DNA of 64,000 nt from Protula sp. h YS-2021 (Eukaryota; Annelida; Polychaeta; Sabellida; Serpulidae). The notes under the pieces were generated by a model that was not told where the DNA came from, did no database searches, and was given only the letters and a program-made list of their open reading frames with translations. This document shows positions 24,144-64,000 of the stretch, one piece after another (position 1 is the stretch's first letter; the number at the start of each line of letters is the position of its first letter). Location: assembly GCA_949752745.1 (NCBI GenBank), contig OX457026.1:28334116-28398115 (forward strand), given 5' to 3'. Made by a program: the position numbers and the translations under genes.

Positions 24144-24358
24144 AACTTTCCTAGTCTTCCTCCTACGGGCAAGGAGGCGTTTAAGGAAAGTAAATTTTCC
24201 AAGTCTCTTAAGTTTGCTAAAGTATCGCCAGGAGATAAGGGAATCTCGTGACGGTACTTTGGTTGGCTGCTACCTGAACGACTGTGGAGCCGGACCCTCT
24301 GTCTTGCTGCCGGGGCTGGGTTTCGGTTTCTTGACAGGGGGCTGTTGTGGCTGCGCAC
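22244..24358 (-). CDS. DIRS reverse transcriptase / RNase H
   Basis: A 704-codon frame that overlaps the gag-like frame by about 90 bases and the recombinase frame over most of its length. It copies element RNA into DNA and removes the RNA strand. RT motifs: GWRLVIDLSPIN (about 168-179), SIDLSDAYLHIPL (about 207-219, catalytic Asp), LPFGLATAPYVF (about 241-252) and FQYLDDW (about 271-277, the catalytic YLDD). RNase H motifs: EIQTDASHAGWGIYW (about 430), WLELRVVW (conserved Glu), RLDNSTAIAYLNKQGG (conserved Asp) and HLAGKLNVLADLASR (conserved His/Asp). The start Met lies just before the overlap end and may not be the true start, because DIRS polymerase frames are often translated by unconventional means. 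No stops interrupt it. Confidence 0.92.
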   Translation of the reverse strand: MRSHNSPLSRNRNPAPAARQRVRLHSRSGSSQPKYRHEIPLSPGDTLANLRDLENLLSLNASLPVGGRLGKFWQQWAEMGASRRVVRWLKRGYSLPFKRDRNGLRCPIPLTAHAPRQLVTSYAKGSEKDRALQEMLLSLSQKQAIEEMPENQMGFFSRVFLVPKKSGGWRLVIDLSPINGFLRVITFQMDTAQVIKGSLREGMWGTSIDLSDAYLHIPLHRSARKFLAFQVGKRRFWFLALPFGLATAPYVFSKVMKVLKTWARLEGMLVFQYLDDWFLANQDRQVTENHTMSLVRKALEVGLVVNLAKSELTPKQSITFLGEFWDLAIAKAFPTPERRQRIADAIKGISPGKKVRLQAMESLLGLLVATEKTVPLGRLHYRPFQSQVRWALHQGRSPAARMQVSQVTLQALQWWCDVLIMSEGMPFQPPTPEIEIQTDASHAGWGIYWNGQVWKGKWPPSLQSYHINWLELRVVWIALIKLTNQLRNKAVLFRLDNSTAIAYLNKQGGTKSRSLSKLAFQILSKAREEQVTVSARHLAGKLNVLADLASRQGQVINTEWCLSPRSFQWVTHQSPWGAPTLDLFANAMTTQLPRYVSPCPDPAAWAVDALNCQWPRDEVLYAFPPQAILGQVLQRVIELKPPFLLLIAPWTPEAPWFALLLHCKVVRSIPIPCHNELLSQPHWHHFHPSPRLLNLHLWCLTSPF

Positions 24359-26567
24359 TCGGCTTAGACGGTGCTGGAGAGGACTGTTGTGGTCTCTTCC
24401 TCTTCAGTGGACGTTTGAAGGAGGAGCGAGACATCCTGGACATCAGGGCATAATCTTGCGAAAGCGAACGACTTTCCTGGTTCACCCTCTCTATCTCGGC
24501 GGGAGGAAATAGTTCTCGTTCCTCCAGGATAGGGGCATGACGCAGGTCCCGCAAACCTTTGACACTAGACCAGCAGTGCTGGAGAAAGGCATCTCGACGT
24601 AAGTAGACCATTGAAGTCATCAAAAAAGTGGAAAGTTTGACCACGTCTCGGGTAGCTAAGGCCAGGCATTCCATCAATTTAGCAGACACGGGATCACTAA
24701 GGCGAAGTTCTTCCCAACGCGACTTTAGTGCTTTAAGTGCATGATCTTGAAAAGACATAATGTTCAGGATGTGGCGAGAAGACGCCTCGATGGTCTTTGC
24801 GTCTTTCTCCACTAATGGAATGTCTGAGTCACTACGCACTGTGGGCATCCAGACTGTACGCTTCACGGGCTGCTCCAGTGCCTCTAGGGGAATTTTTTCA
24901 TCCGCTGACCGATATGGTCCTGGTCGTACTGAGCAATGTTTAGATAAATGGAAACGCGACAACGTGCGACCCTCACCGGCGTCCATCTTCTTGAACTCTT
25001 TCGCGCGGACCGTGACAGCATGAGCAATGCCCTCACTGGTGGCTAGTGCGATAAACGAGTCCTGTTGTGGTGGAGCTGCCTGAGATGTCATCCGAATGGG
25101 CGGATCCTCCTTATCTAAATTTGGGGAGCCACAGGAGACCTCTGCTAAGCGGGCTATCTCTTGAATGGCATCCCTGAACGGCACGTCTTCTGGTGCAATC
25201 GTAGAAGCAGAACTCGAGGGGGCCGCGTCCTCGACCGATGGGGCAAGATCTGGTGGAGAGGGAGTACGGATGGGCCGTCTGCCCGCTGCCGCTGGATCTC
25301 TCCAAAGTCGATGCCCTTGGCCGGGAGAACGCACCTGCTCCACTGCCCGTAACGGTAAATGACAACGGGAATGTACTGACGTACCCTCGGATTCTTCTTC
25401 CCCGTCTTCCACCTCCGACTCCTGTTCATCAGATGCTGCTTCTGGGAGTTGGGATTGTGAAAAATGTGACATGTGGGGTTCCCCTACTGGGGTGTAAATT
25501 TCTTTCTCCCTGTTGCTTGGGACTGCTGCTAGGGGAGAATTTTCCATCGGCCCGATTTCCTCATCATCTTCCAGCAATGCGGAGACTTGGCCCGAAAGGG
25601 GCACGCCCACGGAATCCTCCTCGCTGATGGTGACCGTTTCGGGAATATCCACGTTAGAGTCCAGCGGGAGGTGAGGTACAGGCGAGCCCGATATCGCTGC
25701 CACTGACTGAATTTCCGGAGGAGGACGAGAAACCGTAGCTGATGGTTTAGGCTTTTGCCTTTGACTAAGCAGACTCTCCTGCTTCTGAACTTGACTCTGT
25801 AAATCCAAAAGTTGTTTTTGCAGTTGCGATTGCATAGACAAAAACGCGGAAAATTCACTCGGGAGACGCTGCAGCTGAGGAGGGGGGGATAAGTCCTCTC
25901 GCGGGGGAATGCCTAACTGGCCTGTAACCGCCGAAAGTACTGTTCCCGTATCCTTATGCGTTAAAGTCACTTGTTCCTCAGACGGGGACTTAAACGCCCC
26001 TCCTGGACTGCCACTGGGTTTCACTCTAGGAGGTGAGGCCCATGCCTCGCGGAGACGATCCCGTTCTTGCCCTTCCGGGATGTCCAATTCTGCTACAGTC
26101 TCAGAAAATGCACGTCCTTTACTCTTGGACTTTTTATGTCTCTTAACTGGCGTAGCGGATTCCGATTCTGCACCAGTGTCTACGTGTACGGGGGTGGAGA
26201 CCTGGCCCAGAATAACGGAGCTAGCCTTCTTCATGGTATCACGAATAAATTCACGAGTAACAAACGAAGCTGACGAAAGGAATTTGCGCTTATCCCTCCT
26301 GCGCTCGTTCTTGGTCCTATTCCGTAATAGGACTTTCCAATCCTCTGGAGAAAGATGTAGACACTCGCCACACTGGCTGTCTGGCTCACACAGAGGTATT
26401 CCACTATTCCGTCTACAGCGGTCGCAGATGGAGTGGGGGTTACACGCGGTTGGAGGATGGATACACTGAGGCAGTAACGGTGGAGAATGTAGACTGGCCT
26501 CTGTCATATCTGAAATGCAAGCAGAGAAAAACAACGGTGAGAATATGTAGTATAAAACAACGCACAA
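24270..26567 (-). CDS. DIRS gag-like protein
   Basis: First large frame of the element, 765 codons, presumed to be the nucleocapsid or structural protein by position. No retroviral zinc knuckle is seen. A cysteine cluster (CDRCRR, then CEP, then CGECLHLSPEDW) lies near residues 50-75 and is of a kind often found in DIRS first frames. The middle is long, acidic and Pro/Ser-rich, with a Gln-rich stretch (SQLQKQLLDLQSQVQKQ) that may form a coiled coil. The C-terminus is Lys/Arg/Pro-rich (RPLKRKRPQQSS), suitable for nucleic-acid binding or nuclear entry. Met1 is followed by a hydrophobic run; Met20 (MTEASLHS, at 26510) is a more likely start, being adjacent to the conserved part. Confidence 0.75.
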   Translation of the reverse strand: MCVVLYYIFSPLFFSACISDMTEASLHSPPLLPQCIHPPTACNPHSICDRCRRNSGIPLCEPDSQCGECLHLSPEDWKVLLRNRTKNERRRDKRKFLSSASFVTREFIRDTMKKASSVILGQVSTPVHVDTGAESESATPVKRHKKSKSKGRAFSETVAELDIPEGQERDRLREAWASPPRVKPSGSPGGAFKSPSEEQVTLTHKDTGTVLSAVTGQLGIPPREDLSPPPQLQRLPSEFSAFLSMQSQLQKQLLDLQSQVQKQESLLSQRQKPKPSATVSRPPPEIQSVAAISGSPVPHLPLDSNVDIPETVTISEEDSVGVPLSGQVSALLEDDEEIGPMENSPLAAVPSNREKEIYTPVGEPHMSHFSQSQLPEAASDEQESEVEDGEEESEGTSVHSRCHLPLRAVEQVRSPGQGHRLWRDPAAAGRRPIRTPSPPDLAPSVEDAAPSSSASTIAPEDVPFRDAIQEIARLAEVSCGSPNLDKEDPPIRMTSQAAPPQQDSFIALATSEGIAHAVTVRAKEFKKMDAGEGRTLSRFHLSKHCSVRPGPYRSADEKIPLEALEQPVKRTVWMPTVRSDSDIPLVEKDAKTIEASSRHILNIMSFQDHALKALKSRWEELRLSDPVSAKLMECLALATRDVVKLSTFLMTSMVYLRRDAFLQHCWSSVKGLRDLRHAPILEERELFPPAEIERVNQESRSLSQDYALMSRMSRSSFKRPLKRKRPQQSSPAPSKPSAQPQQPPVKKPKPSPGSKTEGPAPQSFR

Positions 26568-40190: not shown

Positions 40191-40196
40191 ACCAGC
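40191..40196. repeat. Target site duplication, left (ACCAGC)
   Basis: ACCAGC abuts the AGTAGT end of the palindromic element and is repeated in direct orientation at 47438-47443. Beyond these six bases the flanks differ. Confidence 0.8.
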
Positions 40197-40740
40197 AGTA
40201 GTATGAAAACAAGAGTTCTACCACACTTTTGTGGTGGTTCTCTTAAGAGTTCTACCACACTTGATGACGTCATACTGTCTGGAAGTGACGTCATACTGTC
40301 TGGAAGTGACGTCATCATGTCTGGAAGTGACGTCATAGCGTCTGGACCGGAAGTGGTGTCTAGACCGGAAGTGGTGTCTAGACCGGAAGTGCTGTCTAGA
40401 CCGGAAGTGTTGTCTGGACCGGAAGTGACGTCATGATGTCTGGACCGGAAGTCATGATAAGCGTTAGGATAGGCGCGACCATGTGTGACGTCATCATGAC
40501 GTCATACTGAGATGATGCTGTCTGGAGCGAAAGTGGTTTGGCCGAGTCAATCAACATGAAGCCAATGAACTCCTGCTGTCAATCATCATGACGTCACTAG
40601 TCACGTGACCTGTCAATCATCGGTCATGTGACCCTAACCCTAGCGAGACTTCCAGACCACTTTTTGACGTCATACTGACGTCCCTTCTACCATCTGTCTA
40701 TCATACCTTCATAATACACATTCATAATACACTCTATGGT
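40197..40740. promoter_or_regulatory. Terminal ETS/CRE site array, left arm
   Basis: Tandem units of GTCT(G/A)GACCGGAAGTG and GTCTGGAAGTGACGTCA between about 40266 and 40450. ACCGGAAGT is the ETS-family consensus and TGACGTCA the CREB/ATF consensus, often fused as CCGGAAGTGACGTCA. Beyond lie the E-box GTCACGTGAC (near 40600) and CCCTAACCCTAG (40632-40643), which resembles two telomere repeats. The whole block recurs inverted at 46894-47437, and a close relative occurs at 60838-61240. Confidence 0.75.
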
Positions 40741-41043
40741 TTAGGGGTAGGCTGCCCATACCCGGGGCTCGAACCACCAACCTTCTGAGCATGGGTCCGA
40801 CCAGGAGTCCCACGCTCTAACAACTGAGCTATTCCGGACTGAACAAGAATGTATTGTGAAAACATGCCATGTAAGGCTATAATGCACGATAAATTTCAGA
40901 CTGCACTCGTTCAGAGCGTGGGGGAAACCGATCGATAAAATTTCAGAGTGCACTCGTTCAGAGCGTGGGGAAAAAACCGATCGATAAAAATTTTTTAGAG
41001 TACACTCGTTCAGAGCGTGGGGAAAACGATGGTTCTGCCACAC
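40741..41043 (-). repeat. tRNA-like (SINE-head-like) segment plus triple 57-bp repeat, left arm
   Basis: On the minus strand TAGCTCAGTTG (40821-40831) matches a pol III A box and GGTTCGAGCCC (40765-40775) a B box, about 45 bases apart. The T-stem and acceptor stem do not pair, so it is not a functional tRNA; a tRNA-derived SINE head is more likely. Next to it (about 40890-41030) are three copies of a roughly 57-bp unit with CACTCGTTCAGAGCGTGGGG and ATCGATCGG. Confidence 0.6.
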
Positions 41044-41089
41044 TTGATGACGTCATACTGTCAATCATTGTGACATGAGGTGTCATAAT

Positions 41090-41896
41090 GACGTCATAGT
41101 TACACCTTAGTAACGCCTTGGTTACGCCTTGGTTACAGTGGTTACACCTTAGTTACACCTTAGTTACGCCTTGGTTACAGTGGTTACACCTTAGTTACGC
41201 CTTAGTTACCTTAGTTACGCCTTGGTTACGCCTTAGTTACCTTAGTTACGCCTTAGTTACGCCTTAGTTACGCCTTAATTACCTTAGTTACGCCTTAGTT
41301 ACCTTAGTTACTCCTTAGTTACGCCTTAGTTACGCCTTAGTTACCTTAGTTACGCCTTAGTTACGCCTTAATTACCTTAGTTACGCCTTAGTTACCTTAG
41401 TTACTCCTTAGTTACGCCTTAGTTACGCCTTTATTTCCTTAGTTACGCCTTAGTTACGCCTTGATTTCCTTAGTTACGCCTTAGTTACGCCTTGGTTACA
41501 GTAGTTACACCTTAGTTACGCCTTAGTTACCTAAGTTACTCCTTAGTTACGCCTTAGTTACGCCTTAGTTACCTTAGTTACGCCTTAGTTACCTTAGTTA
41601 CGCCTTAGTTACGCCTTGGTTACACCTTAGTTACGCCTTAGTTACCTTAGTTACTCCTTAGTTACGCCTTAGTTACCTTAGTTACGCCTTGGTTACGCCT
41701 TGGTTACAGTAGTTACACCTTAGTTACGCCTTGATTTCCTTAGTTACGCCTTAGTTACGCCTTAGTTACGCCTTAATTACCTTAGTTACGCCTTAGTTAC
41801 GCCTTAGTTACGCCTTAGTTACCTTAGTTACGCCTTAGTTACGCCTTAGTTGCGCCTTAGTTACATCTTGTTTGCGCCTTAGTTACCTTAGCTACG
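41090..41896. repeat. GCCTTAGTTAC satellite, left arm
   Basis: About 800 bp of 11-bp GCCTTAGTTAC units with interspersed CTTAGTTAC and CTTGGTTACAGTGGTTAC variants. Its mirror is 45738-46544. Non-coding. Confidence 0.9.
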
Positions 41897-42160
41897 CAAA
41901 AACGAGATAACTTTTGTTGTAGTTGAGCGATTTGCATGAAAATTTTACCGTTTGATTCAGTTTTATATCTAGTTTTAACATTAAGTGATCACAGGCTATT
42001 TACGCCGGTGGTTGTATGCATCATGGATTCACCTTAAAAGTTTTTAAACTTAAAAGTAAGATAACTTTCGTTATGGTTGACCGATTTGAATGAAAATTTC
42101 ACCGTTGGATTCAGTTTGATGTCTTAGTTTTAAAGTAGTTTATGCATAGGTAGGTTGTTG
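41897..42160. repeat. Two ~150-bp direct copies, left arm
   Basis: AGATAACTTTTGTTGTAGTT and AGATAACTTTCGTTATGGTT each begin a unit containing GATTTG(C/A)ATGAAAATTT, ACCGTT(T/G)GATTCAGTTT and TAGTTTTAA. The mirror is 45474-45737. Confidence 0.7.
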
Positions 42161-42219
42161 GAATGGCGCGCGCCCACCATTTAAACATGTGTTTGAATAA
42201 GTTTTACGTCAAACTATTG

Positions 42220-42490
42220 TTCAACAAGTTGTTTAGCAATTGTACAACAATTGTTCAACAAGCTGTTGTTGAACATGTTCAACATGTTGTTGAACATGTT
42301 CAACATGTTCAACATGTTCAACAACATGTTCAACATGTTCAACATGTTCAACATGTTCAACATGTTCAACAACATGTTCAACAAGTTGAACATGTTCAAC
42401 ATGTTCAACATGTTGTTGCACAAGTTGAACATGTTCAACATGTTCAACTTGTTCAACAACATGCTGTTTAACAAATTGTTCAACAAGTTG
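42220..42490. repeat. GTTCAACAT satellite, left arm
   Basis: A 9-bp repeat in both orientations (GTTCAACAT and ATGTTGAAC), creating many GAACATGTTC palindromes. Mirror 45144-45414. A 9-bp period keeps frames open on both strands, so the long repetitive open frames here are not genes. GAACATGTTC fits the p53-family half-site rule RRRCWWGYYY, which may be coincidence. Confidence 0.85.
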
Positions 42491-42539
42491 TAGTTCAAGC
42501 AAAGAAAAAACAAGACATATGTTGAATAGGTTTATTAAT

Positions 42540-42640
42540 ACATTTAAATACACTTAAATACACTTAAATACATTTAACTACACTTAAATACACTTAAATA
42601 CACTTAAATACACTTAAATACATACAGCTTAAATCTTTAA
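42540..42640. repeat. ACACTTAAATAC minisatellite, left arm
   Basis: About eight units of ACACTTAAAT/ACATTTAA-type between the satellite and the 3' end of the zinc-finger gene. Mirror 44994-45094. Confidence 0.75.
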
Positions 42641-42672
42641 CAATATTACAATATTTGTTGATCTACAAAGTC

Positions 42673-42678
42673 TTTATT
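42673..42678 (-). terminator. Poly(A) signal of left zinc-finger gene
   Basis: AATAAA on the minus strand, 22 bases beyond the stop codon. Mirror of 44956-44961. Confidence 0.7.
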
Positions 42679-42699
42679 ATAAAGTTTAGTCAAATAAGT

Positions 42700-43437
42700 C
42701 TATTTTTCTTCATCTGCTTCACTCTGTTCACTGGCATCCATATCACTTTTTTCGTCGCTGCTTTCATCTTCCTCCTCCTCATCTAGAAGCTCTTCAAAGA
42801 ATGCATCGTTTCTTCTTATAGCCGCCTTTAGTGCCTTTGAATACTCGTAATGTTTTTCATCAACAAAGTAATTGAAGTCTTCTAAAATGGTTTCATAATG
42901 TTCGTTTTGTTGTAGACGTTGGGCATATTTGAATAGTCTCATAAACAGTTGTTTAAGTCGACGCTTATAAATGGGTCGAAAGTCATCACTTGCTATGTCA
43001 CGCGCATCTTCAAGCCCTTGGTCTTCATATTCTGAAACCTTTTCTTGAAATTTGGTATCATATTCATCGTAGACTTCTTGAACCATATCATACCAAACAG
43101 AGTCTGTTTCTGACTCACTTTCAGAGTCTGTTTCTGACTCACTTTCAGAGCTGCCGTCATTATCACCCTCAACACAATGTTCCATATGTTTGAACAAAGC
43201 TTCTTGACTGTTGTATAACGCACCACATTCTGTACAAGCATGTGCATTCTTTTCAGTCATGTTGACGCTTTGACTTTCCATAGAAGACTCATCTAAAATT
43301 TCAGTGATAGGTGGTTTTACAGGGTTTTCCACATCTATCTCCAATTCTTCTTCTTCTGAAGTGTGAGCATTCTTTAAGTGCCTTTTAAGACTTTGTGGCC
43401 AATTGTAAGATTTCAAACAAATGTTGCATTTATACAT
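42700..43437 (-). CDS. Intronless zinc-finger protein, left-arm copy
   Basis: A 245-residue protein, identical to the right-arm copy. Residues 2-25 form a classical C2H2 finger (Cys4, Cys7, His20, His25). Residues 66-88 form a second finger (Cys68, Cys71, His84, then His87 or Cys88). A Ser/Glu/Asp tract follows (about 97-114), then a charged helical region (about 115-210) with WYDMVQEVYDEYDTKFQEK and RRLKQLFMRLFKYAQRL. The C-terminal tail is very acidic. Fingers plus acidic regions suggest a DNA-binding regulator in the nucleus (inference; no family assigned). It is transcribed outward from the palindrome centre, with its own TATA box and AATAAA signal, no introns and a very short 5' leader. 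The start codon is followed directly by the first finger. Confidence 0.8.
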   Translation of the reverse strand: MYKCNICLKSYNWPQSLKRHLKNAHTSEEEELEIDVENPVKPPITEILDESSMESQSVNMTEKNAHACTECGALYNSQEALFKHMEHCVEGDNDGSSESESETDSESESETDSVWYDMVQEVYDEYDTKFQEKVSEYEDQGLEDARDIASDDFRPIYKRRLKQLFMRLFKYAQRLQQNEHYETILEDFNYFVDEKHYEYSKALKAAIRRNDAFFEELLDEEEEDESSDEKSDMDASEQSEADEEK

Positions 43438-43490
43438 CCTTTCGGTTCAACATGCACTTTTCAAATGATGAAAAAGCCTTTAAACATAGC

Positions 43491-43498
43491 CTTATATA
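43491..43498 (-). promoter_or_regulatory. TATA box of left zinc-finger gene
   Basis: TATATAAG on the minus strand, about 54-61 bases upstream of the ATG. Mirror of 44136-44143. Directly upstream are TTGAACATG repeats and a CRE cluster. Confidence 0.7.
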
Positions 43499-43500
43499 CA

Positions 43501-43575
43501 ACTTGTTGAACAACATGTTGAACATGTTCAACATGTTGTTGAACATGTTGTTGAACATGTTGTTGAACATGTTGT
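43501..43575. repeat. Promoter-proximal TTGAACATG repeats, left
   Basis: Several GTTGAACAT and GTTCAACAT units directly upstream of the left TATA box. Mirror 44059-44133. Confidence 0.75.
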
Positions 43576-43592
43576 CTATGCCTAGGGGAGTT

Positions 43593-43670
43593 TAACGTCA
43601 TGACGTCATTATGACGTCATCATTATGACGTCATTATTACGTCATCATTATGACGTCATAATGACGTCAT
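43593..43670. promoter_or_regulatory. CRE cluster upstream of left zinc-finger gene
   Basis: Five exact TGACGTCA sites (43601, 43612, 43626, 43651, 43662) plus one near-match in about 70 bases, at roughly 10-bp multiples. Mirror 43964-44041. TGACGTCA is the full CREB/ATF palindrome. Confidence 0.75.
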
Positions 43671-43697
43671 TGGAACAGGCGCATGCTTTGTCAAAAA

Positions 43698-43804
43698 CTG
43701 ACTCAGCAGAATTTATTGCTGTTTGATATGGATGAAATGCATGTCTCACTCTTCCTTTTATGCTACTTAGATGTAATCAAAATATGGTGTGTAACTCGTC
43801 AAAA
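43698..43804 (-). promoter_or_regulatory. Promoter module, left copy
   Basis: Inverted copy of the module at 43830-43936. On the minus strand it reads GTTACACACCATATTTTG, then AAGTAGCATAAAAGGAAG (TATA-like CATAAAAG at 43755-43762), then TGCTGAGTCAG (43698-43708). Confidence 0.6.
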
Positions 43805-43829
43805 TCAGCAATTTTTACAAGTTTGGCAT
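43805..43829. other. Non-palindromic 25-nt spacer at the palindrome centre
   Basis: The only part of the element that is not mirrored. It begins TCAGCAATTTTTACAAG. Read with the right arm, it continues collinearly into the promoter module exactly as TCAGCAATTTTAACAA continues in the relative at 62050-62100. It therefore looks like leftover unique parental sequence rather than a designed loop. Confidence 0.85.
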
Positions 43830-43936
43830 TTTTGACGAGTTACACACCATATTTTGATTACATCTAAGTAGCATAAAAGGAAGAGTGAGACATGCATTTC
43901 ATCCATATCAAACAGCAATAAATTCTGCTGAGTCAG
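43830..43936 (+). promoter_or_regulatory. Promoter module, right copy
   Basis: GTTACACACCATATTTTG, ATTACATCTAAGTAG, then CATAAAAG (43872-43879), AAGAGTGAGACATG and TGCTGAGTCAG (43926-43936). The same blocks in the same order occur at 62085-62163 ahead of a gene in the element at 60838. CATAAAAG is a plausible TATA variant. TGCTGAGTCA matches Maf/CNC and AP-1 sites. What it drives here is unclear: only a nine-codon frame follows before the zinc-finger gene's own TATA box. Confidence 0.65.
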
Positions 43937-43963
43937 TTTTTGACAAAGCATGCGCCTGTTCCA

Positions 43964-44041
43964 ATGACGTCATTATGACGTCATAATGATGACGTAATAA
44001 TGACGTCATAATGATGACGTCATAATGACGTCATGACGTTA
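43964..44041. promoter_or_regulatory. CRE cluster upstream of right zinc-finger gene
   Basis: Mirror of 43593-43670, with five exact TGACGTCA sites between the central promoter module and the TATA box of the right-arm gene. Confidence 0.75.
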
Positions 44042-44058
44042 AACTCCCCTAGGCATAG

Positions 44059-44133
44059 ACAACATGTTCAACAACATGTTCAACAACATGTTCAACAACA
44101 TGTTGAACATGTTCAACATGTTGTTCAACAAGT
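44059..44133. repeat. Promoter-proximal TTCAACATG repeats, right
   Basis: Mirror of 43501-43575, directly upstream of the right TATA box. Confidence 0.75.
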
Positions 44134-44135
44134 TG

Positions 44136-44143
44136 TATATAAG
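44136..44143 (+). promoter_or_regulatory. TATA box of right zinc-finger gene
   Basis: TATATAAG, 54-61 bases before the ATG at 44197. Transcription would start near 44166, giving a leader of about 30 bases. Confidence 0.7.
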
Positions 44144-44196
44144 GCTATGTTTAAAGGCTTTTTCATCATTTGAAAAGTGCATGTTGAACCGAAAGG

Positions 44197-44934
44197 ATGT
44201 ATAAATGCAACATTTGTTTGAAATCTTACAATTGGCCACAAAGTCTTAAAAGGCACTTAAAGAATGCTCACACTTCAGAAGAAGAAGAATTGGAGATAGA
44301 TGTGGAAAACCCTGTAAAACCACCTATCACTGAAATTTTAGATGAGTCTTCTATGGAAAGTCAAAGCGTCAACATGACTGAAAAGAATGCACATGCTTGT
44401 ACAGAATGTGGTGCGTTATACAACAGTCAAGAAGCTTTGTTCAAACATATGGAACATTGTGTTGAGGGTGATAATGACGGCAGCTCTGAAAGTGAGTCAG
44501 AAACAGACTCTGAAAGTGAGTCAGAAACAGACTCTGTTTGGTATGATATGGTTCAAGAAGTCTACGATGAATATGATACCAAATTTCAAGAAAAGGTTTC
44601 AGAATATGAAGACCAAGGGCTTGAAGATGCGCGTGACATAGCAAGTGATGACTTTCGACCCATTTATAAGCGTCGACTTAAACAACTGTTTATGAGACTA
44701 TTCAAATATGCCCAACGTCTACAACAAAACGAACATTATGAAACCATTTTAGAAGACTTCAATTACTTTGTTGATGAAAAACATTACGAGTATTCAAAGG
44801 CACTAAAGGCGGCTATAAGAAGAAACGATGCATTCTTTGAAGAGCTTCTAGATGAGGAGGAGGAAGATGAAAGCAGCGACGAAAAAAGTGATATGGATGC
44901 CAGTGAACAGAGTGAAGCAGATGAAGAAAAATAG
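44197..44934 (+). CDS. Intronless zinc-finger protein, right-arm copy
   Basis: A 245-residue protein identical to the copy at 42700-43437: C2H2 finger at residues 2-25, second finger at 66-88, Ser/Glu/Asp tract near 97-114, charged helical middle and acidic tail. The acidic tract is encoded by a duplicated 24-bp unit containing TGAGTCA, so the coding sequence itself carries two AP-1-like sites. The start is chosen because the first finger begins at residue 2 and the TATA box lies about 55 bases upstream. It points towards the right terminus. Identity of the two copies means either very recent formation or arm-to-arm gene conversion. Confidence 0.8.
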   Translation: MYKCNICLKSYNWPQSLKRHLKNAHTSEEEELEIDVENPVKPPITEILDESSMESQSVNMTEKNAHACTECGALYNSQEALFKHMEHCVEGDNDGSSESESETDSESESETDSVWYDMVQEVYDEYDTKFQEKVSEYEDQGLEDARDIASDDFRPIYKRRLKQLFMRLFKYAQRLQQNEHYETILEDFNYFVDEKHYEYSKALKAAIRRNDAFFEELLDEEEEDESSDEKSDMDASEQSEADEEK

Positions 44935-44955
44935 ACTTATTTGACTAAACTTTAT

Positions 44956-44961
44956 AATAAA
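44956..44961 (+). terminator. Poly(A) signal of right zinc-finger gene
   Basis: AATAAA, 22 bases after the stop codon. A second AATAAA lies near 45099-45104. Confidence 0.7.
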
Positions 44962-44993
44962 GACTTTGTAGATCAACAAATATTGTAATATTG

Positions 44994-45414
44994 TTAAAGA
45001 TTTAAGCTGTATGTATTTAAGTGTATTTAAGTGTATTTAAGTGTATTTAAGTGTAGTTAAATGTATTTAAGTGTATTTAAGTGTATTTAAATGTATTAAT
45101 AAACCTATTCAACATATGTCTTGTTTTTTCTTTGCTTGAACTACAACTTGTTGAACAATTTGTTAAACAGCATGTTGTTGAACAAGTTGAACATGTTGAA
45201 CATGTTCAACTTGTGCAACAACATGTTGAACATGTTGAACATGTTCAACTTGTTGAACATGTTGTTGAACATGTTGAACATGTTGAACATGTTGAACATG
45301 TTGAACATGTTGTTGAACATGTTGAACATGTTGAACATGTTCAACAACATGTTGAACATGTTCAACAACAGCTTGTTGAACAATTGTTGTACAATTGCTA
45401 AACAACTTGTTGAA
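44994..45414. repeat. GTATTTAAGT minisatellite and GTTGAACAT satellite, right arm
   Basis: Mirror of 42220-42640: about eight GTATTTAAGT units (44994-45094), then the 9-bp GTTGAACAT satellite (45144-45414). Confidence 0.85.
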
Positions 45415-45473
45415 CAATAGTTTGACGTAAAACTTATTCAAACACATGTTTAAATGGTGGGCGCGCGCCATTC

Positions 45474-45737
45474 CAACAACCTACCTATGCATAAACTACT
45501 TTAAAACTAAGACATCAAACTGAATCCAACGGTGAAATTTTCATTCAAATCGGTCAACCATAACGAAAGTTATCTTACTTTTAAGTTTAAAAACTTTTAA
45601 GGTGAATCCATGATGCATACAACCACCGGCGTAAATAGCCTGTGATCACTTAATGTTAAAACTAGATATAAAACTGAATCAAACGGTAAAATTTTCATGC
45701 AAATCGCTCAACTACAACAAAAGTTATCTCGTTTTTG
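45474..45737. repeat. Two ~150-bp direct copies, right arm
   Basis: Mirror of 41897-42160. Confidence 0.7.
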
Positions 45738-46544
45738 CGTAGCTAAGGTAACTAAGGCGCAAACAAGATGTAACTAAGGCGCAACTAAGGCGTAACTAAG
45801 GCGTAACTAAGGTAACTAAGGCGTAACTAAGGCGTAACTAAGGCGTAACTAAGGTAATTAAGGCGTAACTAAGGCGTAACTAAGGCGTAACTAAGGAAAT
45901 CAAGGCGTAACTAAGGTGTAACTACTGTAACCAAGGCGTAACCAAGGCGTAACTAAGGTAACTAAGGCGTAACTAAGGAGTAACTAAGGTAACTAAGGCG
46001 TAACTAAGGTGTAACCAAGGCGTAACTAAGGCGTAACTAAGGTAACTAAGGCGTAACTAAGGTAACTAAGGCGTAACTAAGGCGTAACTAAGGAGTAACT
46101 TAGGTAACTAAGGCGTAACTAAGGTGTAACTACTGTAACCAAGGCGTAACTAAGGCGTAACTAAGGAAATCAAGGCGTAACTAAGGCGTAACTAAGGAAA
46201 TAAAGGCGTAACTAAGGCGTAACTAAGGAGTAACTAAGGTAACTAAGGCGTAACTAAGGTAATTAAGGCGTAACTAAGGCGTAACTAAGGTAACTAAGGC
46301 GTAACTAAGGCGTAACTAAGGAGTAACTAAGGTAACTAAGGCGTAACTAAGGTAATTAAGGCGTAACTAAGGCGTAACTAAGGCGTAACTAAGGTAACTA
46401 AGGCGTAACCAAGGCGTAACTAAGGTAACTAAGGCGTAACTAAGGTGTAACCACTGTAACCAAGGCGTAACTAAGGTGTAACTAAGGTGTAACCACTGTA
46501 ACCAAGGCGTAACCAAGGCGTTACTAAGGTGTAACTATGACGTC
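45738..46544. repeat. GTAACTAAGGC satellite, right arm
   Basis: Mirror of the left-arm 11-bp satellite at 41090-41896. Confidence 0.9.
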
Positions 46545-46590
46545 ATTATGACACCTCATGTCACAATGATTGACAGTATGACGTCATCAA

Positions 46591-46893
46591 GTGTGGCAGA
46601 ACCATCGTTTTCCCCACGCTCTGAACGAGTGTACTCTAAAAAATTTTTATCGATCGGTTTTTTCCCCACGCTCTGAACGAGTGCACTCTGAAATTTTATC
46701 GATCGGTTTCCCCCACGCTCTGAACGAGTGCAGTCTGAAATTTATCGTGCATTATAGCCTTACATGGCATGTTTTCACAATACATTCTTGTTCAGTCCGG
46801 AATAGCTCAGTTGTTAGAGCGTGGGACTCCTGGTCGGACCCATGCTCAGAAGGTTGGTGGTTCGAGCCCCGGGTATGGGCAGCCTACCCCTAA
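46591..46893 (+). repeat. tRNA-like segment plus triple 57-bp repeat, right arm
   Basis: Mirror of 40741-41043. A box TAGCTCAGTTG at 46803-46813 and B box GGTTCGAGCCC at 46859-46869. The tRNA stems do not pair. Confidence 0.6.
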
Positions 46894-47437
46894 ACCATAG
46901 AGTGTATTATGAATGTGTATTATGAAGGTATGATAGACAGATGGTAGAAGGGACGTCAGTATGACGTCAAAAAGTGGTCTGGAAGTCTCGCTAGGGTTAG
47001 GGTCACATGACCGATGATTGACAGGTCACGTGACTAGTGACGTCATGATGATTGACAGCAGGAGTTCATTGGCTTCATGTTGATTGACTCGGCCAAACCA
47101 CTTTCGCTCCAGACAGCATCATCTCAGTATGACGTCATGATGACGTCACACATGGTCGCGCCTATCCTAACGCTTATCATGACTTCCGGTCCAGACATCA
47201 TGACGTCACTTCCGGTCCAGACAACACTTCCGGTCTAGACAGCACTTCCGGTCTAGACACCACTTCCGGTCTAGACACCACTTCCGGTCCAGACGCTATG
47301 ACGTCACTTCCAGACATGATGACGTCACTTCCAGACAGTATGACGTCACTTCCAGACAGTATGACGTCATCAAGTGTGGTAGAACTCTTAAGAGAACCAC
47401 CACAAAAGTGTGGTAGAACTCTTGTTTTCATACTACT
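46894..47437. promoter_or_regulatory. Terminal ETS/CRE site array, right arm
   Basis: Mirror of 40197-40740, ending GTTTTCATACTACT at 47437. Confidence 0.75.
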
Positions 47438-47443
47438 ACCAGC
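47438..47443. repeat. Target site duplication, right (ACCAGC)
   Basis: Direct copy of 40191-40196 immediately outside the right terminus. Confidence 0.8.
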
Positions 47444-48158: not shown

Positions 48159-50243
48159 ATGGCTTGTGACGTCAGCAGTCGATTGATGTGTGGCCTTGTT
48201 TATGTCGCTTTCATGTCGTGTGTAATGTCCGCTCGATTCTCTGACGCCAGTTGTAAATTTCCCGATTTTTACAAGTCCTCGGATAACAGCACCGATCGCG
48301 ATTGGAAAGGACGAATAAAAAATCAGAATACTGAAGTCACTTTTCAAATCAGTATAAGTGAGAACATCATACGTGCGACTTCGACGGACGACAGTGCTAC
48401 GTCATACACGCGTGTATGTGTGCGCGCCTACGGGGATAAGTACGTCGTCGCGCATGAGCAGCAGGGGCAGGAGGGCGCGCGCTTCACGTGCATACAGTTT
48501 GTCAAGCGTGGCGATCACGTGTTCCAGTTCCGCGAAGCACCCGTAGGCACAAGTATGAATAAAAACATCTGTAATAACAAAAATCTGGAGTTAAATCCAT
48601 GGCTTATTATTGACATGAATCATGTGGCTGATGACGTGAGAGCATTTCCGTTTAATGGCGGATTTAGCGTACACATTTACGACAGAAAACATGGACGAGG
48701 TATTTGCGATTCTTATCAAGGAATGACGCGCATTGAAAGTGAATGCGTCGAAGGAGAAGGTCTTTATTTCCGTTACCGCTATTACAGATGTATCCCGGAC
48801 CACATTTACATGTACGTAGAACAGAGAACATTGTGTCTCTCGCACTGGCAGGAAGGACCATACACCTTTGTATTATTACGTCACGACGATAGGAAACAAT
48901 ACATGTGGCTTCTTCGCTACCCGACCGGCTTAGGTGACAGCCTGACGATGATACTGTTCAATGACCTTGTAGCTGATATGAACTCCCATGCCGGGCAGAC
49001 ACTTAATTACCTACGACTTGACGCGATACGCGACACGCCGCGCCCGGCCACCGCTCTATGCCTGGATGATTACGAGGAATGCAGCTACAAGCGCGACCCG
49101 TGTGATGACGCAATTATGACGATGTACTGCCCGCGCACTTGCGGCGTCTGTCACGCTACTCGTCCTCGCAGCTGTACGTTTGAAAGTCAGTACCAAGGTC
49201 AGTGGTATGACGCTGTAGAGCCTGGAAGTCTCGCGTTAACAGTAAACAGCACTTCTCTGACAACTTATGATAAAAACATACGGGAGCAGTTACACTGTAT
49301 TGAGTGGGACCCGGAATCAGAGCAAAATGCTAAACCGTTTGCAAAAACGCGTATGTTAGTCCGCGAATTTAACAATGGCTGTAGACCCAGATTCAGTTGT
49401 GTTCAATTTATGCAGCACGGTAGGTCAGCGTTATTTTTCAAACTCAGCCAGGGACTTGCTTGGCCATTTACATCCAGTCGAAGAGAGCCTTTAGACTGTA
49501 GTAAATTTGCATATGAGGAGGTACAGGGTCTCAATCCAAATAAATTTAGAAGTAGAAATTTAAATCTAGTCTATATTCGTGCCTCAAATACTGCCTCCTG
49601 CGATCTTCCGAGGACTGAAGGTGAATATGTGGCGACTTTCAGGGATGGAAATCAATGTGCATCTTCCATTCTGCAAAACCAAAGTGCTAATTCTTTTACA
49701 TTAGACCTAATGAATTGCTCAGGGTCAGAACTCGGGGGCACGTATGTATGTGCTGACAGTAGTAGGATGTTCCCACGCAGGGATCAGATCCTGATAACCC
49801 GATCTGGATCCAATCCGGATTTAATCTACTGCTGGATGCTGCCCCGTAGACAACATGATGTATTCTACTTAATCAAAGCCGCCAACTGCAACGAGGCGTT
49901 GAGAAAAAAATTAAGCCGCGGCAGACTGAAACCGCTGATAACATTCACTCGCAATGGGATCATCCCAGAACTGGATTACGAAGATCGCGAACCGAATGAA
50001 CTGCCTACAATTGTTGTTGACCCTACGCTAAACCAGCCAAATCCTACTCATTCATCAGATCAAAAATATTCTACACCATTCTATAGAGTTGAGGGTGCGG
50101 ATTCGAACTGGAACTCGTCCCACCCCCGCGGGAATACTACAGATACTGACAGTGATATGGAGATCACTGTGAAGTCAGTGGCCGTGGTCTCAGTTGTCCT
50201 AGTCATGGCTGTTCTACAGACCCTCTGTGTGTGTAATTGCTAA
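48159..50243 (+). CDS. Single-exon secreted/membrane ShKT-domain protein
   Basis: A 694-residue protein encoded without introns. The N-terminus is hydrophobic (LMCGLVYVAFMSCVMSA), a probable signal peptide cleaved near residue 25-30. A series of cysteine-containing extracellular modules follows, each with a CxFP or Cys-Trp beginning and a conserved CIQF or CVQF block (FTCIQFVKRGDHVFQF; FSCVQFMQHGRSALFF). Near residues 300-334 is a six-cysteine ShKT domain (CLDDYEEC, CDD, YCPRTCGVC). Potential N-glycosylation sites include NQS, NCS and NSS. The C-terminus is a hydrophobic helix (VAVVSVVLVMAVLQTL) ending in CVCNC, so it is probably membrane-anchored. The overall layout resembles uncharacterised invertebrate secreted proteins with repeated DUF704x-type modules (from memory, not searched). 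Function unknown. Codon composition is less AT-rich than the surroundings. Confidence 0.8.
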   Translation: MACDVSSRLMCGLVYVAFMSCVMSARFSDASCKFPDFYKSSDNSTDRDWKGRIKNQNTEVTFQISISENIIRATSTDDSATSYTRVCVRAYGDKYVVAHEQQGQEGARFTCIQFVKRGDHVFQFREAPVGTSMNKNICNNKNLELNPWLIIDMNHVADDVRAFPFNGGFSVHIYDRKHGRGICDSYQGMTRIESECVEGEGLYFRYRYYRCIPDHIYMYVEQRTLCLSHWQEGPYTFVLLRHDDRKQYMWLLRYPTGLGDSLTMILFNDLVADMNSHAGQTLNYLRLDAIRDTPRPATALCLDDYEECSYKRDPCDDAIMTMYCPRTCGVCHATRPRSCTFESQYQGQWYDAVEPGSLALTVNSTSLTTYDKNIREQLHCIEWDPESEQNAKPFAKTRMLVREFNNGCRPRFSCVQFMQHGRSALFFKLSQGLAWPFTSSRREPLDCSKFAYEEVQGLNPNKFRSRNLNLVYIRASNTASCDLPRTEGEYVATFRDGNQCASSILQNQSANSFTLDLMNCSGSELGGTYVCADSSRMFPRRDQILITRSGSNPDLIYCWMLPRRQHDVFYLIKAANCNEALRKKLSRGRLKPLITFTRNGIIPELDYEDREPNELPTIVVDPTLNQPNPTHSSDQKYSTPFYRVEGADSNWNSSHPRGNTTDTDSDMEITVKSVAVVSVVLVMAVLQTLCVCNC

Positions 50244-60831: not shown

Positions 60832-60837
60832 AGAGAC
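60832..60837. repeat. Predicted left target duplication (AGAGAC)
   Basis: The six bases before the AGTAGT terminus. By analogy with the palindrome, AGAGAC should recur directly after an ACTACT end beyond 64000. The partner is not in the window. Confidence 0.35.
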
Positions 60838-61240
60838 AGTAGTGTAGAAAGAGGGGTTTCACCGCACTTTGTGACGTCATACTGTCTGGACCGGAAGTGA
60901 CGTCATAACGTCTGGACCGGAAGTGTTGTCTGGACCGGAAGTGTTGTCTGGACCGGAAGTGTTGTCTGGACCGGAAGTGTTGTCTGGACCGGAAGTGCTG
61001 TCTGGACCGGAAGTGTTGTCTGGACCGGAAGTGCTGTCTGGACCGGAAGTGCTGTCTGGACCGGAAGTGCTGTCTGGACCGGAAGTGACGTCATGATAAG
61101 CGTTATGATAGGCGCGGCCATCCATGACGTCATGATGACGTCATGATGACGTCATACTGTCTGGAGCGAAAGTTGCTTGATAGTTTTGGCCGAGTCAATC
61201 ATCATGAAGCCAATGAACTCCACCTGTCAATCAGTGTAAC
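60838..61240. promoter_or_regulatory. Terminal ETS/CRE array of the second element
   Basis: Eleven copies of GGACCGGAAGTG in an approximately 18-bp tandem unit (GTCTGGACCGGAAGTGTT) between about 60880 and 61095. The first and last run straight into TGACGTCA. Four further TGACGTCA sites occur to about 61155. ETS plus CRE composites are strong housekeeping-type promoter elements in animals. Long frames through this block are repeat artefacts. Confidence 0.8.
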
Positions 61241-61266
61241 CATGGCAACAGACTCTAAAAAGCCAT

Positions 61267-61425
61267 GACCCCCCCCCCTAGGTGGCAGTCGGGACTGACC
61301 CCCCCCCAGGATATACTATGTACCGACCCCCCCCAGGACATACTATGTACCGACCCCCCCCTAGGATATATCTACCGACCCCCCCCCCTAGGTGGCGGTC
61401 GGGACTGACCCCCCCCCCCCCAAGA
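61267..61425. repeat. C-run repeat with ATATACTATGTACC units
   Basis: Alternating GACCCCCCCC, TAGGTGGCRGTCGGGACTG and AGGA(T/C)ATACTATGTACC blocks, about five units, with palindromic CCTAGG cores. Strong strand asymmetry in G/C could favour unusual secondary structure. Confidence 0.7.
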
Positions 61426-61465
61426 GAGCAACAAAAACTTTTGCCGAATCAGCATGATAAAATCC

Positions 61466-61473
61466 TATATAAG
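61466..61473 (+). promoter_or_regulatory. TATA box of first element gene
   Basis: TATATAAG, 40-47 bases before the ATG at 61513. It is the same octamer as before the zinc-finger genes. Confidence 0.65.
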
Positions 61474-61512
61474 TGTGGTGTCTCAAGGCTTAGAGACATT
61501 GTCAGACACATC

Positions 61513-61788
61513 ATGGATAACACACCAGCTATCATCATTGATGACTTAACAGCGTTTCAAGCGAATGAATCTGTTTGCATCTGGGTAAATATGCGTGATG
61601 AAGCTGAAGCAGCTGATATTACATATGCTTTTGAGGAGGTGCTACAATTTCCAACTCAGATCACTGCAGTGAAGCCTGACGTAGTAATTACATTTATGTG
61701 GAACAACCGCATAGTAACACTGACTCAACGATACTGCAAGTGTCAAGTGTGGTTGGAATATGAGGGACAACCCCATAACTGCTGCTGA
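61513..61788 (+). CDS. Element protein 1, unknown (91 aa)
   Basis: Start chosen at MDNTPAIIIDD because a TATATAAG box sits about 45 bases upstream. An in-frame upstream extension would run back into the C-run repeat and is unlikely. The protein is small and acidic in its first half (NMRDEAEAADITYAFEEV). A C-terminal part is rich in hydrophobic and Cys residues (YCKCQVW, ending HNCC). No family recognised. Four Cys and one His near the end could bind a metal. As the terminus-proximal gene of a virus-like element it may be an accessory or early protein (inference). Confidence 0.6.
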   Translation: MDNTPAIIIDDLTAFQANESVCIWVNMRDEAEAADITYAFEEVLQFPTQITAVKPDVVITFMWNNRIVTLTQRYCKCQVWLEYEGQPHNCC

Positions 61789-62042
61789 TATATACTAAAA
61801 TCTTTCAGGCCCTTTTAAAGGCCATACTATATTAAGAAATGAAGCAAAACATGTCTGTCTGTGTGTGTGTGAGAGAGAGAGAATATATTTTATTACATTT
61901 CAGGTCTAGTTGGCGGATGAATACCATTTGGCGGATGAATACCATTTGGCAGACCATTTGACTTCACCGCTAGATGTCTCTGCTGTGCAGTAGTGCAGCT
62001 GTACAACTGTAAGTGAGACATTCATATACACAAGTAAAATTC

Positions 62043-62165
62043 TGCTGAGTCAGCAATTTTAACAATTTTGAGCAAGTTTGAAAAGTTACACACCATATTT
62101 TGATTACATGGAAGTAGCATAAAAGCATGAGTGAAACATATATGTGATACATTCTGCTGAGTCAA
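62043..62165 (+). promoter_or_regulatory. Promoter module shared with the palindrome centre
   Basis: TGCTGAGTCAGCA (62043-62055) is a perfect 13-bp Maf recognition palindrome. It is followed by GTTACACACCATATTTTG, ATTACATGGAAGTAG, CATAAAAG (62118-62125), GAGTGAAACAT and a second TGCTGAGTCA (62154-62163). Order and spacing match 43805-43936 in the palindrome. A second GTTACACACCATA block precedes the next TATA box, so the module is partly duplicated. Confidence 0.7.
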
Positions 62166-62226
62166 CAATTTTGAACGAGTATTGAATAAGTTTGAACAAG
62201 TTACACACCATATACCATCAAAGTTT

Positions 62227-62234
62227 TATAAAAG
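62227..62234 (+). promoter_or_regulatory. TATA box of second element gene
   Basis: TATAAAAG followed by GAAGAGTGA, only 34 bases before the ATG. The leader should be nearly absent. Confidence 0.7.
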
Positions 62235-62260
62235 GAAGAGTGACGAGAAAATACTTCACA

Positions 62261-62695
62261 ATGTCGGCATTACTTCTTGACAGATGTATGACTATGGATG
62301 ACGTCTTCAAAGTGAACTATATTGACTATGTGTTTTCAAAGCTTCCTGCTTTTGAATCGGATTGGATGCTGCAAGTGAAGAATTTGCATCTGCATTGGGA
62401 AGCTGTTGGAAAGGCTATTCCAAGAGATCGTTTCATCCACTCGTTTCTACGTGAATGTGAAGATCTACATTTACTATCAACTTACAACATTGATTCAGCA
62501 TTTATCAACGCGAATACAATTTGGGCAACTGACCTCATGTTAGCTGTAGCTACTAGAATTATTCTACATTATGATGATGATGTTCCAAATAATGTATCAG
62601 ACCTTGTTCGGTTCAACCATGGACGAGTTGAAGTGAATTCAAAACTTTGCAAGTTCTTTGAAAAGAAAGATGACTCAGCATATAGTTGGGTATAA
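62261..62695 (+). CDS. Element protein 2, unknown helical (144 aa)
   Basis: Start at MSALLLDRCM, placed by the TATAAAAG box at 62227. An in-frame Met further upstream at 62192 lies before the TATA box and is rejected. The protein is predicted largely helical, with LHLHWEAVGKAI, FIHSFLRECEDLHLL, and IDSAFINANTIWATDLML. The pattern hW..V, then hSxFLxEC, then IDxAL, then a hydrophobic helix recurs in element protein 4, so the two look like distant paralogues. No known family recognised. Its stop codon lies inside the TATA box of the next gene. Confidence 0.62.
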   Translation: MSALLLDRCMTMDDVFKVNYIDYVFSKLPAFESDWMLQVKNLHLHWEAVGKAIPRDRFIHSFLRECEDLHLLSTYNIDSAFINANTIWATDLMLAVATRIILHYDDDVPNNVSDLVRFNHGRVEVNSKLCKFFEKKDDSAYSWV

Positions 62696-62698
62696 AAG
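62691..62698 (+). promoter_or_regulatory. TATA box overlapping the previous stop codon
   Basis: TATAAAAG. The TAA at 62693-62695 is the stop of the 62261 gene. The ATG of the next gene follows at 62740. Confidence 0.68.
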
Positions 62699-62739
62699 GG
62701 AGTGGACTCAGCAGAGTGAAGTCATTTCTCAGCAGACAG

Positions 62740-63429
62740 ATGGAGGGAGTGGATCATCAATACATTGTGGTAGTCATGGAGAACAAGACAAGCAACGCAG
62801 CAGCGCAGCGCAGCAGCAGCAGCAGCTTTAAAATTAGTGCTAACTTAACCATTACTGTGGAGCATGGAGAATATGGGCCATTTCTACGCATCACACGTGG
62901 AGAGAGATGGTGTGCTTATTCACCATCTTTGTGGAAGATTGTGTGCCAGAGCTTGAAAAATTTACGTGACATTGGCTTCAAACTATACTTAACGCAAACG
63001 AAGTGGCTTGAAGTCATTTCATACTTGGATATGCGCTATGTGAGTTTTGTGCGCACGTCACGGTTTGAAGAGAAAGAATACACACATCACATCAACATGA
63101 ATGATGGTGAATGGGAGACACTGCTTCAGGAGATGGACAACATCAACTCAGCCCTATCGCCATGTGAGGAATGTCATGTCATAACTCCTATCAAGCTGCA
63201 AAAGGATGGTCGGATGAAGGTGTCAAAACTATCCAAGAAAAGGCTGGCTGAAGTTCAGTTGGAGAACATGAACGTACAAAATCAACTTGGACTTACCTGC
63301 GACTATTGTGGTGCTTGTGGATATGTGGAGGATTATCATTGCCACTGTCACAAGTATAATTGCAAGATGTGTGAACCAAACAACTTCTGCGGCAAGTGTG
63401 GAGTACTTAAAGTCTGTGAAGCAAAGTAA
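62740..63429 (+). CDS. Element protein 3: PC4-like repeats plus Cys/His cluster (229 aa)
   Basis: Start at MEGVDHQYIVVV, about 45 bases after the TATA box; the in-frame Met at 62686 lies upstream of that box. After a Ser/Ala linker encoded by CAG/AGC repeats come two similar beta-rich, helix-ended units: FKISANLTITVEHGEYGPFL to LWKIVCQSLKNL, and MRYVSFVRTSRFEEKEY to EWETLLQEMDNI. The pattern resembles the ssDNA-binding PC4/p15 coactivator fold, in tandem (inference by eye). The C-terminus has CEECHVITP, then CDYCGACG, CHCHKYNCKMC and CGKCGVLKVC, a dense Cys/His cluster likely to bind two or more zinc ions. A nucleic-acid-binding role in element replication or transcription would fit. Confidence 0.62.
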   Translation: MEGVDHQYIVVVMENKTSNAAAQRSSSSSFKISANLTITVEHGEYGPFLRITRGERWCAYSPSLWKIVCQSLKNLRDIGFKLYLTQTKWLEVISYLDMRYVSFVRTSRFEEKEYTHHINMNDGEWETLLQEMDNINSALSPCEECHVITPIKLQKDGRMKVSKLSKKRLAEVQLENMNVQNQLGLTCDYCGACGYVEDYHCHCHKYNCKMCEPNNFCGKCGVLKVCEAK

Positions 63430-63453
63430 AAGCCCACAAGACAGTGAAACAAG

Positions 63454-63948
63454 ATGGACGCATGTTTTAAAAAAGCTTATGTTGACTTGATGATTGCTAA
63501 ACTTGCTAGCTGTGGCACTCCAGTCTATCAACTTTATCATTTGGATGCTTTTTGGGATGTTGTACATCATAGTCTTGATGTGATTGAACTGCATTCAAGA
63601 TTTCTTGGAGAATGTCATAAAATTGGAATAGAAGAAGATCCTGACTTTGACTTTGATTCTGCACTTTATTCTGCTCGCACTGATGTTGAAGTATATTTCA
63701 CCGTGGTTGACTATTTGAGAGATTGTTGTAAAGAAGAAGAGGAAACCGAGCAGCTTTATCAGGTAAGTTATATAAAACCTTTTTTTTAATCATCTTTGTA
63801 ACAACATAGTGAATTGTTTCTCAAAGACATAATAATGTTTTTCTTACTAGCAAATTTAGTTTTATGTGAGTGGTTTCAACTTAAACAAAGAAAGAACATG
63901 ATAGAAGAGGCAGCAAATATATTAAAAGATATTTTATTACAGGAATAA
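63454..63948 (+). CDS. Element protein 4, unknown helical, one intron (104 aa)
   Basis: The ATG (MDACFKKAYVDL) lies 24 bases after the previous stop, with no TATA box of its own in view, so it may be expressed from a shared or alternatively spliced transcript. Exon 1 is 63454-63762 and ends CTTTATCAG before a consensus donor GTAAGT. The intron is 63763-63942, ending ATTTTATTACAG. Exon 2 adds only GAA and the stop TAA. Unspliced, the frame would add eight codons. AATAAA occurs at the stop itself (63944) and at 63962. It shares a pattern with element protein 2 (FWDVV, LHSRFLGEC, FDSALYSA). The acidic tail is CCKEEEETEQ. No known family. Confidence 0.58.
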
Positions 63949-63981
63949 ACCGACATGTCAGAATAAAGAAGCAAAGTCAAC

Positions 63982-64000
63982 ATGGAGAATCTTGTACTAT
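63982..64000 (+). CDS. Possible start of a further element gene
   Basis: ATGGAGAATCTTGTACT opens a frame that is still open at the window edge, 14 bases after an AATAAA signal. Too short to judge. Confidence 0.25.

Follow-up and report, generated by a model that had tools for sequence, protein, structure and literature searches.

The window, a 64,000-nucleotide stretch of the genome of the serpulid annelid Protula sp. h YS-2021 (contig OX457026.1, positions 28,334,116 to 28,398,115), contains a 7,241-bp palindromic insertion that is one copy of a multicopy family. This family, probably young and non-autonomous, combines Maverick/Polinton-type ends with a palindromic genome, in which an end, a zinc-finger gene and a spacer are followed by the mirrored gene and the mirrored end. 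Copies at different loci indicate that the palindromic form is inherited as such. The explanation that accounts best for the data, and that is considered probable, is a palindromic family with Maverick ends that would have originated by fold-back, would be integrated in trans and would copy one arm onto the other in a hairpin.

The palindrome and its copies

The arms of the element (40197-43804 and 43830-47437) had been described as mirroring each other without indels, and a script comparison of the left arm with the reverse-complemented right arm gave 0 differences in 3,608 positions and 0 indels. The original description as a perfect palindrome of 7.24 kb holds for the arms and not quite for the element as a whole, because an asymmetric spacer of 25 nt (43805-43829) splits them: the inverted repeat covers 7,216 of the 7,241 bp. 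The symmetry stops at AGTAGT/ACTACT, as had also been noted; beyond these hexamers 4 of the 6 next mirrored bases already differ, and ACCAGC directly flanks both element ends (40191-40196 and 47438-47443). From the terminus inwards, each arm consists of TGACGTCA- and CCGGAAGT-type repeats, an 801-bp TTAGTTACGCC-type array, AACATGTT arrays and an open reading frame (ORF) of 245 amino acids (aa), which points outwards from near the element centre. The features of the element are:

40191..40196, target-site duplication ACCAGC, left copy (flank comparison)
40197..43804, + strand, left arm, begins AGTAGTATG; identical (100%) to the reverse-complemented right arm
40254..40585, + strand, part of the left arm common to the end of a 16.8-kb Maverick-like relative (see below), ~75% identity; mirror 47049-47380
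41097..41897, + strand, TTAGTTACGCC-type tandem array; mirror 45737-46537
42700..43437, - strand, 245-aa ORF with two C2H2 zinc fingers and an acidic helical part, left copy
43728..43803, - strand, promoter-like unit by the centre, 84% identity to one in the 16.8-kb relative; mirror 43831-43906
43805..43829, + strand, 25-nt asymmetric spacer, the fold-back junction; shared by 17 of 21 palindromes if a single substitution is allowed
43830..47437, - strand, right arm, ends CATACTACT
44197..44934, + strand, 245-aa C2H2 ORF, right copy
47438..47443, target-site duplication ACCAGC, right copy (flank comparison)

The word TGACGTCA is found 16 times in each arm; ~53 kb of window sequence around the element contain it 2 times, and the window part of the 16.8-kb relative 6 times. 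Each arm also has a tRNA-like stretch (46796-46884, mirror 40750-40838) containing what are presumably A-box- and B-box-like words; neither ARAGORN nor an Rfam gathering search returned a match for it.

Since the insertion region is itself rich in ACCAGC, the duplication in the window is weak evidence when taken alone. After joining the flanks and removing one copy, the motif spacings are 12, 16 and 12, which fits a single ancestral copy that was doubled at insertion; the doubt is settled by the other copies of the family, which have their own 6-bp duplications. Searches for these covered the 863-Mb genome (218 contigs). With the 1,010-bp arm end as query, 394 matches were obtained, the long ones being mostly inverted pairs 6.7-9 kb apart. 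Twenty further loci were taken, 17 with both ends listed and 3 with one (a fourth one-ended locus, on contig C32, was left out), and all 20 are palindromic by self-comparison, with best inverted self-matches of 95.1-99.7%. Both ends were in hand for 20 elements of 6,546-8,902 bp, the window element included; L026 is cut. Termini were assigned by a script that accepted hexamers with at most one mismatch from AGTAGT/ACTACT and kept, among 1-20 candidate pairs per element, the one with the fewest hexamer and flank mismatches, so that the procedure somewhat favours matching pairs. The ends read AGTAGT in 25 and AGTAGG in 15 of 40 cases. The 6-bp duplications foreseen for other copies are present: the flanking 6-mers are equal in 20/20 elements and all 20 differ from each other, with 0/380 equal pairs in a mispaired-flank control.

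Long palindromes are a known type of sequencing and assembly artefact, and a fold-back during reading or assembly could in principle have generated the one in the window. Because the same architecture recurs at many unlinked loci with different flanks, a local artefact of this kind is very unlikely, to the point of deserving next to no credence; the unlike flanks on the two sides of the elements, the 20 different duplications, the variable lengths and the imperfect arms of many copies all contradict it. The insertion is thus real, as originally held. What does not stand is the notion of a single odd element, in place of which there is a family of many copies whose junction is inherited and whose arms are homogenised within each element.

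The same family emerges from a search with the zinc-finger protein. The best 150 of 6,357 candidates were scored, all of them full length with 98-100% identity and 149 free of stops; since only the best candidates were scored, the family counts are lower bounds. Divergent pairs, 66 in number, account for 132 of the 150 matches, and no other arrangement occurs under 3 kb. This leaves 18 unpaired matches, 17 of which were checked over 2 kb upstream. An inverted partner gene lies beside 12 of the 17, covering residues 1-245 in 8 (in two pieces in L039) and partial in 4 (L031, L033, L040, L042); 4 have an inverted arm that lacks the gene (L032, L035, L036, L043), and one (L047) has no inverted arm within these 2 kb. 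The 10 kb beyond the L047 gene contain no match to the 16.8-kb relative or to the arm. The 18th unpaired match sits in the palindrome L027.

Inherited junction and matching arms

The 25-nt spacer is found in either orientation, with at most one substitution, in 17/21 palindromes. L020 and L027 have in common an 18-nt spacer that lies ~100 nt closer to the gene than the usual junction, and L025 and L026 have different centres. A 39-mer spanning the usual junction occurs at 97 places in the genome at no more than 2 mismatches, 76 of them exact, with 0 occurrences of the reversed pattern as control. Individual reading covered part of these 97 places; two of them, both outside the list of 150 gene matches, are palindromes with an open 245-codon ORF per arm that differ by 5.5-7.7% from the window element in the ORF-bearing stretch. 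At the other extreme, the element at L009 shows 1 difference in 7,241 bases from the window element, in its own target and with its own duplication, GGTATC. Inheritance of the palindromic form is indicated by the occurrence of the junction at many loci together with this near-identical copy in a different target. As other junctions exist, palindromes may have re-formed a few times, but not every one arose independently.

The anatomy as such would also fit a one-off snap-back genome of a Maverick, similar to defective-interfering genomes and integrated by chance rather than maintained as a lineage; genomes of this type have been described for adeno-associated virus (AAV; PMC8235507). Such an event can hardly be given any weight here, as it is contradicted by the palindromic form at 20/20 loci and by the junction 39-mer, whose presence at 97 places refutes it as a complete account.

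The two arms of an element resemble each other far more than they resemble the arms of other elements. In the outer 900 bp, the median difference is 0.06% within an element versus 3.23% between elements. The asymmetry of the spacer allows the arms to be phased, and in the 17 elements where this was done, same-phase arms differ by 3.40% and cross-phase arms likewise by 3.40% over the outer 900 bp, the within-element mean being 0.30%. As same-phase arms are no closer than cross-phase arms, the arms do not seem to be inherited separately. Viewed from the left arm, the partner arm is the nearest one or tied in 17/20 elements. Individual mutations follow the same pattern: a 12-bp deletion is present in both arms of L011, L012, L013 and L019 and in a single arm of L017, and in L016 the first departure from the window ORF is at offset 316 in either arm, and neither arm keeps the frame. 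We infer that one arm templates or corrects the other. Since arm would be copied onto arm while the spacer is kept, the intermediate may be a hairpin, acted upon by end-filling or mismatch repair.

The main rival of hairpin copying is chromosomal gene conversion: copying and insertion of the palindrome would involve ordinary double-stranded DNA, with its arms equalised later by conversion between them or by cruciform-based repair. This explains the likeness of arms within elements together with their difference between elements, as well as the one-arm deletion in L017 beside the two-arm deletions in the other four loci; at a large number of young loci, however, it would have to cover ~3.6 kb, right to the termini, for instance in the nearly identical pair formed by L009 and the window element. 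The ends of the 16.8-kb relative, only 87.5% alike, also speak against it to some extent, although they are compatible with both models. Altogether, later equalisation in the chromosome appears unlikely, if considerably less so than the other alternatives discussed here.

Gene content, relatives and proposed cycle

The 245-aa ORF is preceded at its ATG by TATATAAG and followed by AATAAA words 3' of the stop. The predicted structure of the protein comprises two fingers and a helical part, residues 111-210 (block-mean pLDDT 55-95), while the acidic stretches are of low confidence, and the domain search returned zinc-finger matches only. Four database proteins match at E <= 8.4e-5, three of them with 33-51% identity, and all four come from contigs of 871-2,023 bases. 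The gene copies within the genome are too alike to reveal selection on the gene. The only other listed ORF of the element (122 aa) runs from the subterminal repeats into the flank. The palindrome has no ORF for PolB, and no listed PF03175 match falls inside it; nor do its arms have ORFs for an rve integrase, capsid, ATPase or protease. The palindrome itself carries the zinc-finger gene only. Its initial description as a non-autonomous palindromic element with one zinc-finger gene agrees with the lack of any detected hallmark Maverick gene inside it, and the Maverick/Polinton-type ends recognised at the outset recur as AGTAGT or AGTAGG in 40/40 cases, membership being judged by ends and duplication only.

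A larger element with the same ends starts 13.4 kb from the palindrome:

60832..60837, target-site duplication AGAGAC of the 16.8-kb relative; second copy L030:3753-3758
60838..64000, + strand, left portion of this Maverick-like relative, 16,799 bp in all; continues to L030:3752, with integrase, ATPase and protease-like ORFs beyond the window

This relative is complete (window 60838-64000, L029 and L030:1-3752), with AGTAGT...ACTACT ends and AGAGAC on both sides. It is non-palindromic; its ends are 87.5% alike over ~630 bp. Positions 58-389 of the palindrome arm match both of its ends (75% and 79%), so that ~330-390 bp near the terminus are shared; the match reaches 277 bits versus at most 28.3 in 30 shuffled controls and 31.0 in the host stretches tried. 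Parts of its sequence match an rve integrase (E 2.6e-11) and packaging ATPases (Pox_A32 and Adeno_IVa2, E ~1e-6), and there is a weak match to the adenovirus protease (adenain-like, E 5e-4, below the curated cut-off). A NADAR-domain ORF is present as well. For its 230-aa ORF, nearly all of the best 150 of 7,636 candidates in the genome are full length, some with stops. The pieces beyond the window (L029, L030) contain no zinc-finger match. With this equipment the 16.8-kb relative is a likely helper that could act in trans. Genome-wide, 84 PF03175 matches were listed (89 of 4,183 candidates scored). A Maverick-like element with PolB, in an open frame of 1,351 aa, lies at G000:C3:38381127-38382638, and it has tblastx relatives of the integrase and ATPase regions of the 16.8-kb relative.

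Inverted repeats that extend over nearly the whole length recall foldback elements, and the family could accordingly belong to another superfamily with 6-bp duplications that has exchanged terminal sequence with a Maverick-like relative. This origin is regarded as highly improbable: the ~330-390 bp near the terminus are common to an element with an rve integrase, and 40/40 ends are AGTAG[T/G], the commonest end motif of vertebrate Mavericks being (AGT)2//(ACT)2 (PMC8097293).

The preferred explanation, fold-back origin followed by hairpin copying, could operate in the following manner: The copied end of a Maverick-like element would fold back where a short inverted repeat is naturally present. 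L026 has TTGCTGA-G-TCAGCAA at its centre, and CTGCTGAGTCAGCAA occupies the corresponding place in the 16.8-kb relative, within the promoter-like unit; fold-back at a repeat of the TTGCTGA/TCAGCAA type would generate a centre as in L026, and one-sided loss there would yield the common 25-nt spacer. The integrase of related elements would insert the palindrome in trans. In each cycle, one strand would snap into a hairpin, letting one arm serve as template for the other or correct it, and the spacer would be passed on. Two equal ends would offer two good ends to integrase and replication, either of which could be restored from the other.

Several observations weigh against this explanation. All support comes from the assembled sequence rather than from an observed transposition, hairpin, virion or transcript, and chromosomal arm-to-arm gene conversion could likewise homogenise the arms. 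Full-length arms are not always near-identical (95.1-99.7%), the indels being mostly in repeat arrays; array indels between arms occur in many elements, and the arms of L027 and L028 are more divergent. The partner arm is not the nearest in 3/20 elements, with 2 (L009), 1 (L014) and 4 (L028) of 38 other arms being nearer; both of those nearer in L009 belong to the near-identical window element. The model has no explanation for the arm substitutions in L014 (5), L015 (3) and L021 (9), which, in the outer 900 bp, are all confined to the last 60 bp. No PolB was found in the 16.8-kb relative, neither among the listed PF03175 matches nor in those of its coding-strand ORFs that were scanned, and the ends of the palindrome are absent around the one PolB-bearing element examined, that on C3. 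Finally, no non-palindromic parent with the zinc-finger gene was found, so the founding step can only be inferred. The end-confined substitutions themselves look as if the extreme ends had been exchanged apart from the rest.

Going further, and rather speculatively, the family might be a satellite lineage that lives on Mavericks and whose self-complementary genome would be renewed every cycle from one arm alone, so that both ends and mutations are repaired; the zinc-finger protein would bind the element's own arrays and thereby favour its own copying over that of the helper, and read-through hairpin RNAs may silence the helper. This scenario is doubtful.

Two further features of the window were noted. 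A 694-aa ORF with DUF7043 and DUF7044 domains, probably a host gene, adjoins the palindrome (48159-50243). A retrotransposon at 21186-26567 and 2-1742 contains a reverse transcriptase (RVT_1, E 1.1e-19) and a weak phage-integrase-like match below cut-off; the partial copy is 65% identical.

Comparison with known systems

Long palindromes have been described as sources of genome instability (PMC4057610, PMC7999016); in the present family, a mobile element that has been successful is inherited in palindromic form, and the same junction occurs at 97 places. Maverick particles had not been observed according to the vertebrate survey (PMC8097293). Mavericks now gain a satellite whose structure seems to record a copying intermediate, its arms being alike within elements and unlike between them with the junction kept, and hairpin-mediated, protein-primed replication of animal Mavericks becomes testable in a living host. 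Elements of this kind can escape annotation pipelines: one survey of Polinton-like viruses kept only pairs of terminal inverted repeats (TIRs) with a 6-80 kb insert (PMC12220804), a rule that would drop the palindromes because their spacer measures 25 nt. Titles and abstract openings from searches of the Polinton and Maverick literature mention no palindromic Polinton or Maverick, and those from the snap-back, adenovirus-defective and protein-primed literature mention no such element either.

Intact vertebrate Mavericks have 6-bp duplications, measure 12.7-24.6 kb and possess TIRs of 46-1,447 bp, with a mean of 402 bp, their commonest ends being those given above (PMC8097293). The ends and the duplication of the palindrome are alike, and the segment shared with the end of its relative, which reaches to roughly position 390 of the arm, has nearly that mean TIR length. 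In contrast to Mavericks, the palindrome has no detected gene for PolB, integrase, ATPase, protease or capsid, consists nearly entirely of inverted repeat, and belongs to a family of only 6.5-8.9 kb. Because ends and duplication fit Mavericks and gene content does not, we file it, on these sequence characters, as a non-autonomous derivative rather than a Maverick proper. It has in common with the 16.8-kb relative the AGTAGT...ACTACT ends, the 6-bp duplication, subterminal sequence, the promoter-like unit and the short inverted repeat GCTGAGTCAGC; the relative, unlike the palindrome, is non-palindromic and has an rve integrase, a packaging-ATPase-like ORF and the weak adenain-like match.

Foldback elements (FB and similar) resemble the palindrome in consisting almost wholly of inverted repeats; by definition, the arms of foldback elements are non-coding tandem repeats, moved by a transposase class of their own. 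The arms of the palindrome hold tandem arrays plus an open ORF of 245 codons with TATA-like and poly(A)-like words, and they terminate in Maverick-type ends. The fold-back of chromosome arms in yeast is similar in that a short natural inverted repeat gives rise to an inverted linear molecule, which, unlike the palindrome, has no mobile-element ends and no repeated transposition. The snap-back subgenomes of AAV are self-complementary from one viral end, some with a loop, and self-complementarity from one end with a short loop, the 25-nt spacer, is likewise present here; the former are molecules in a parvovirus population (PMC8235507), whereas the palindrome is chromosomal, multicopy and inherited.

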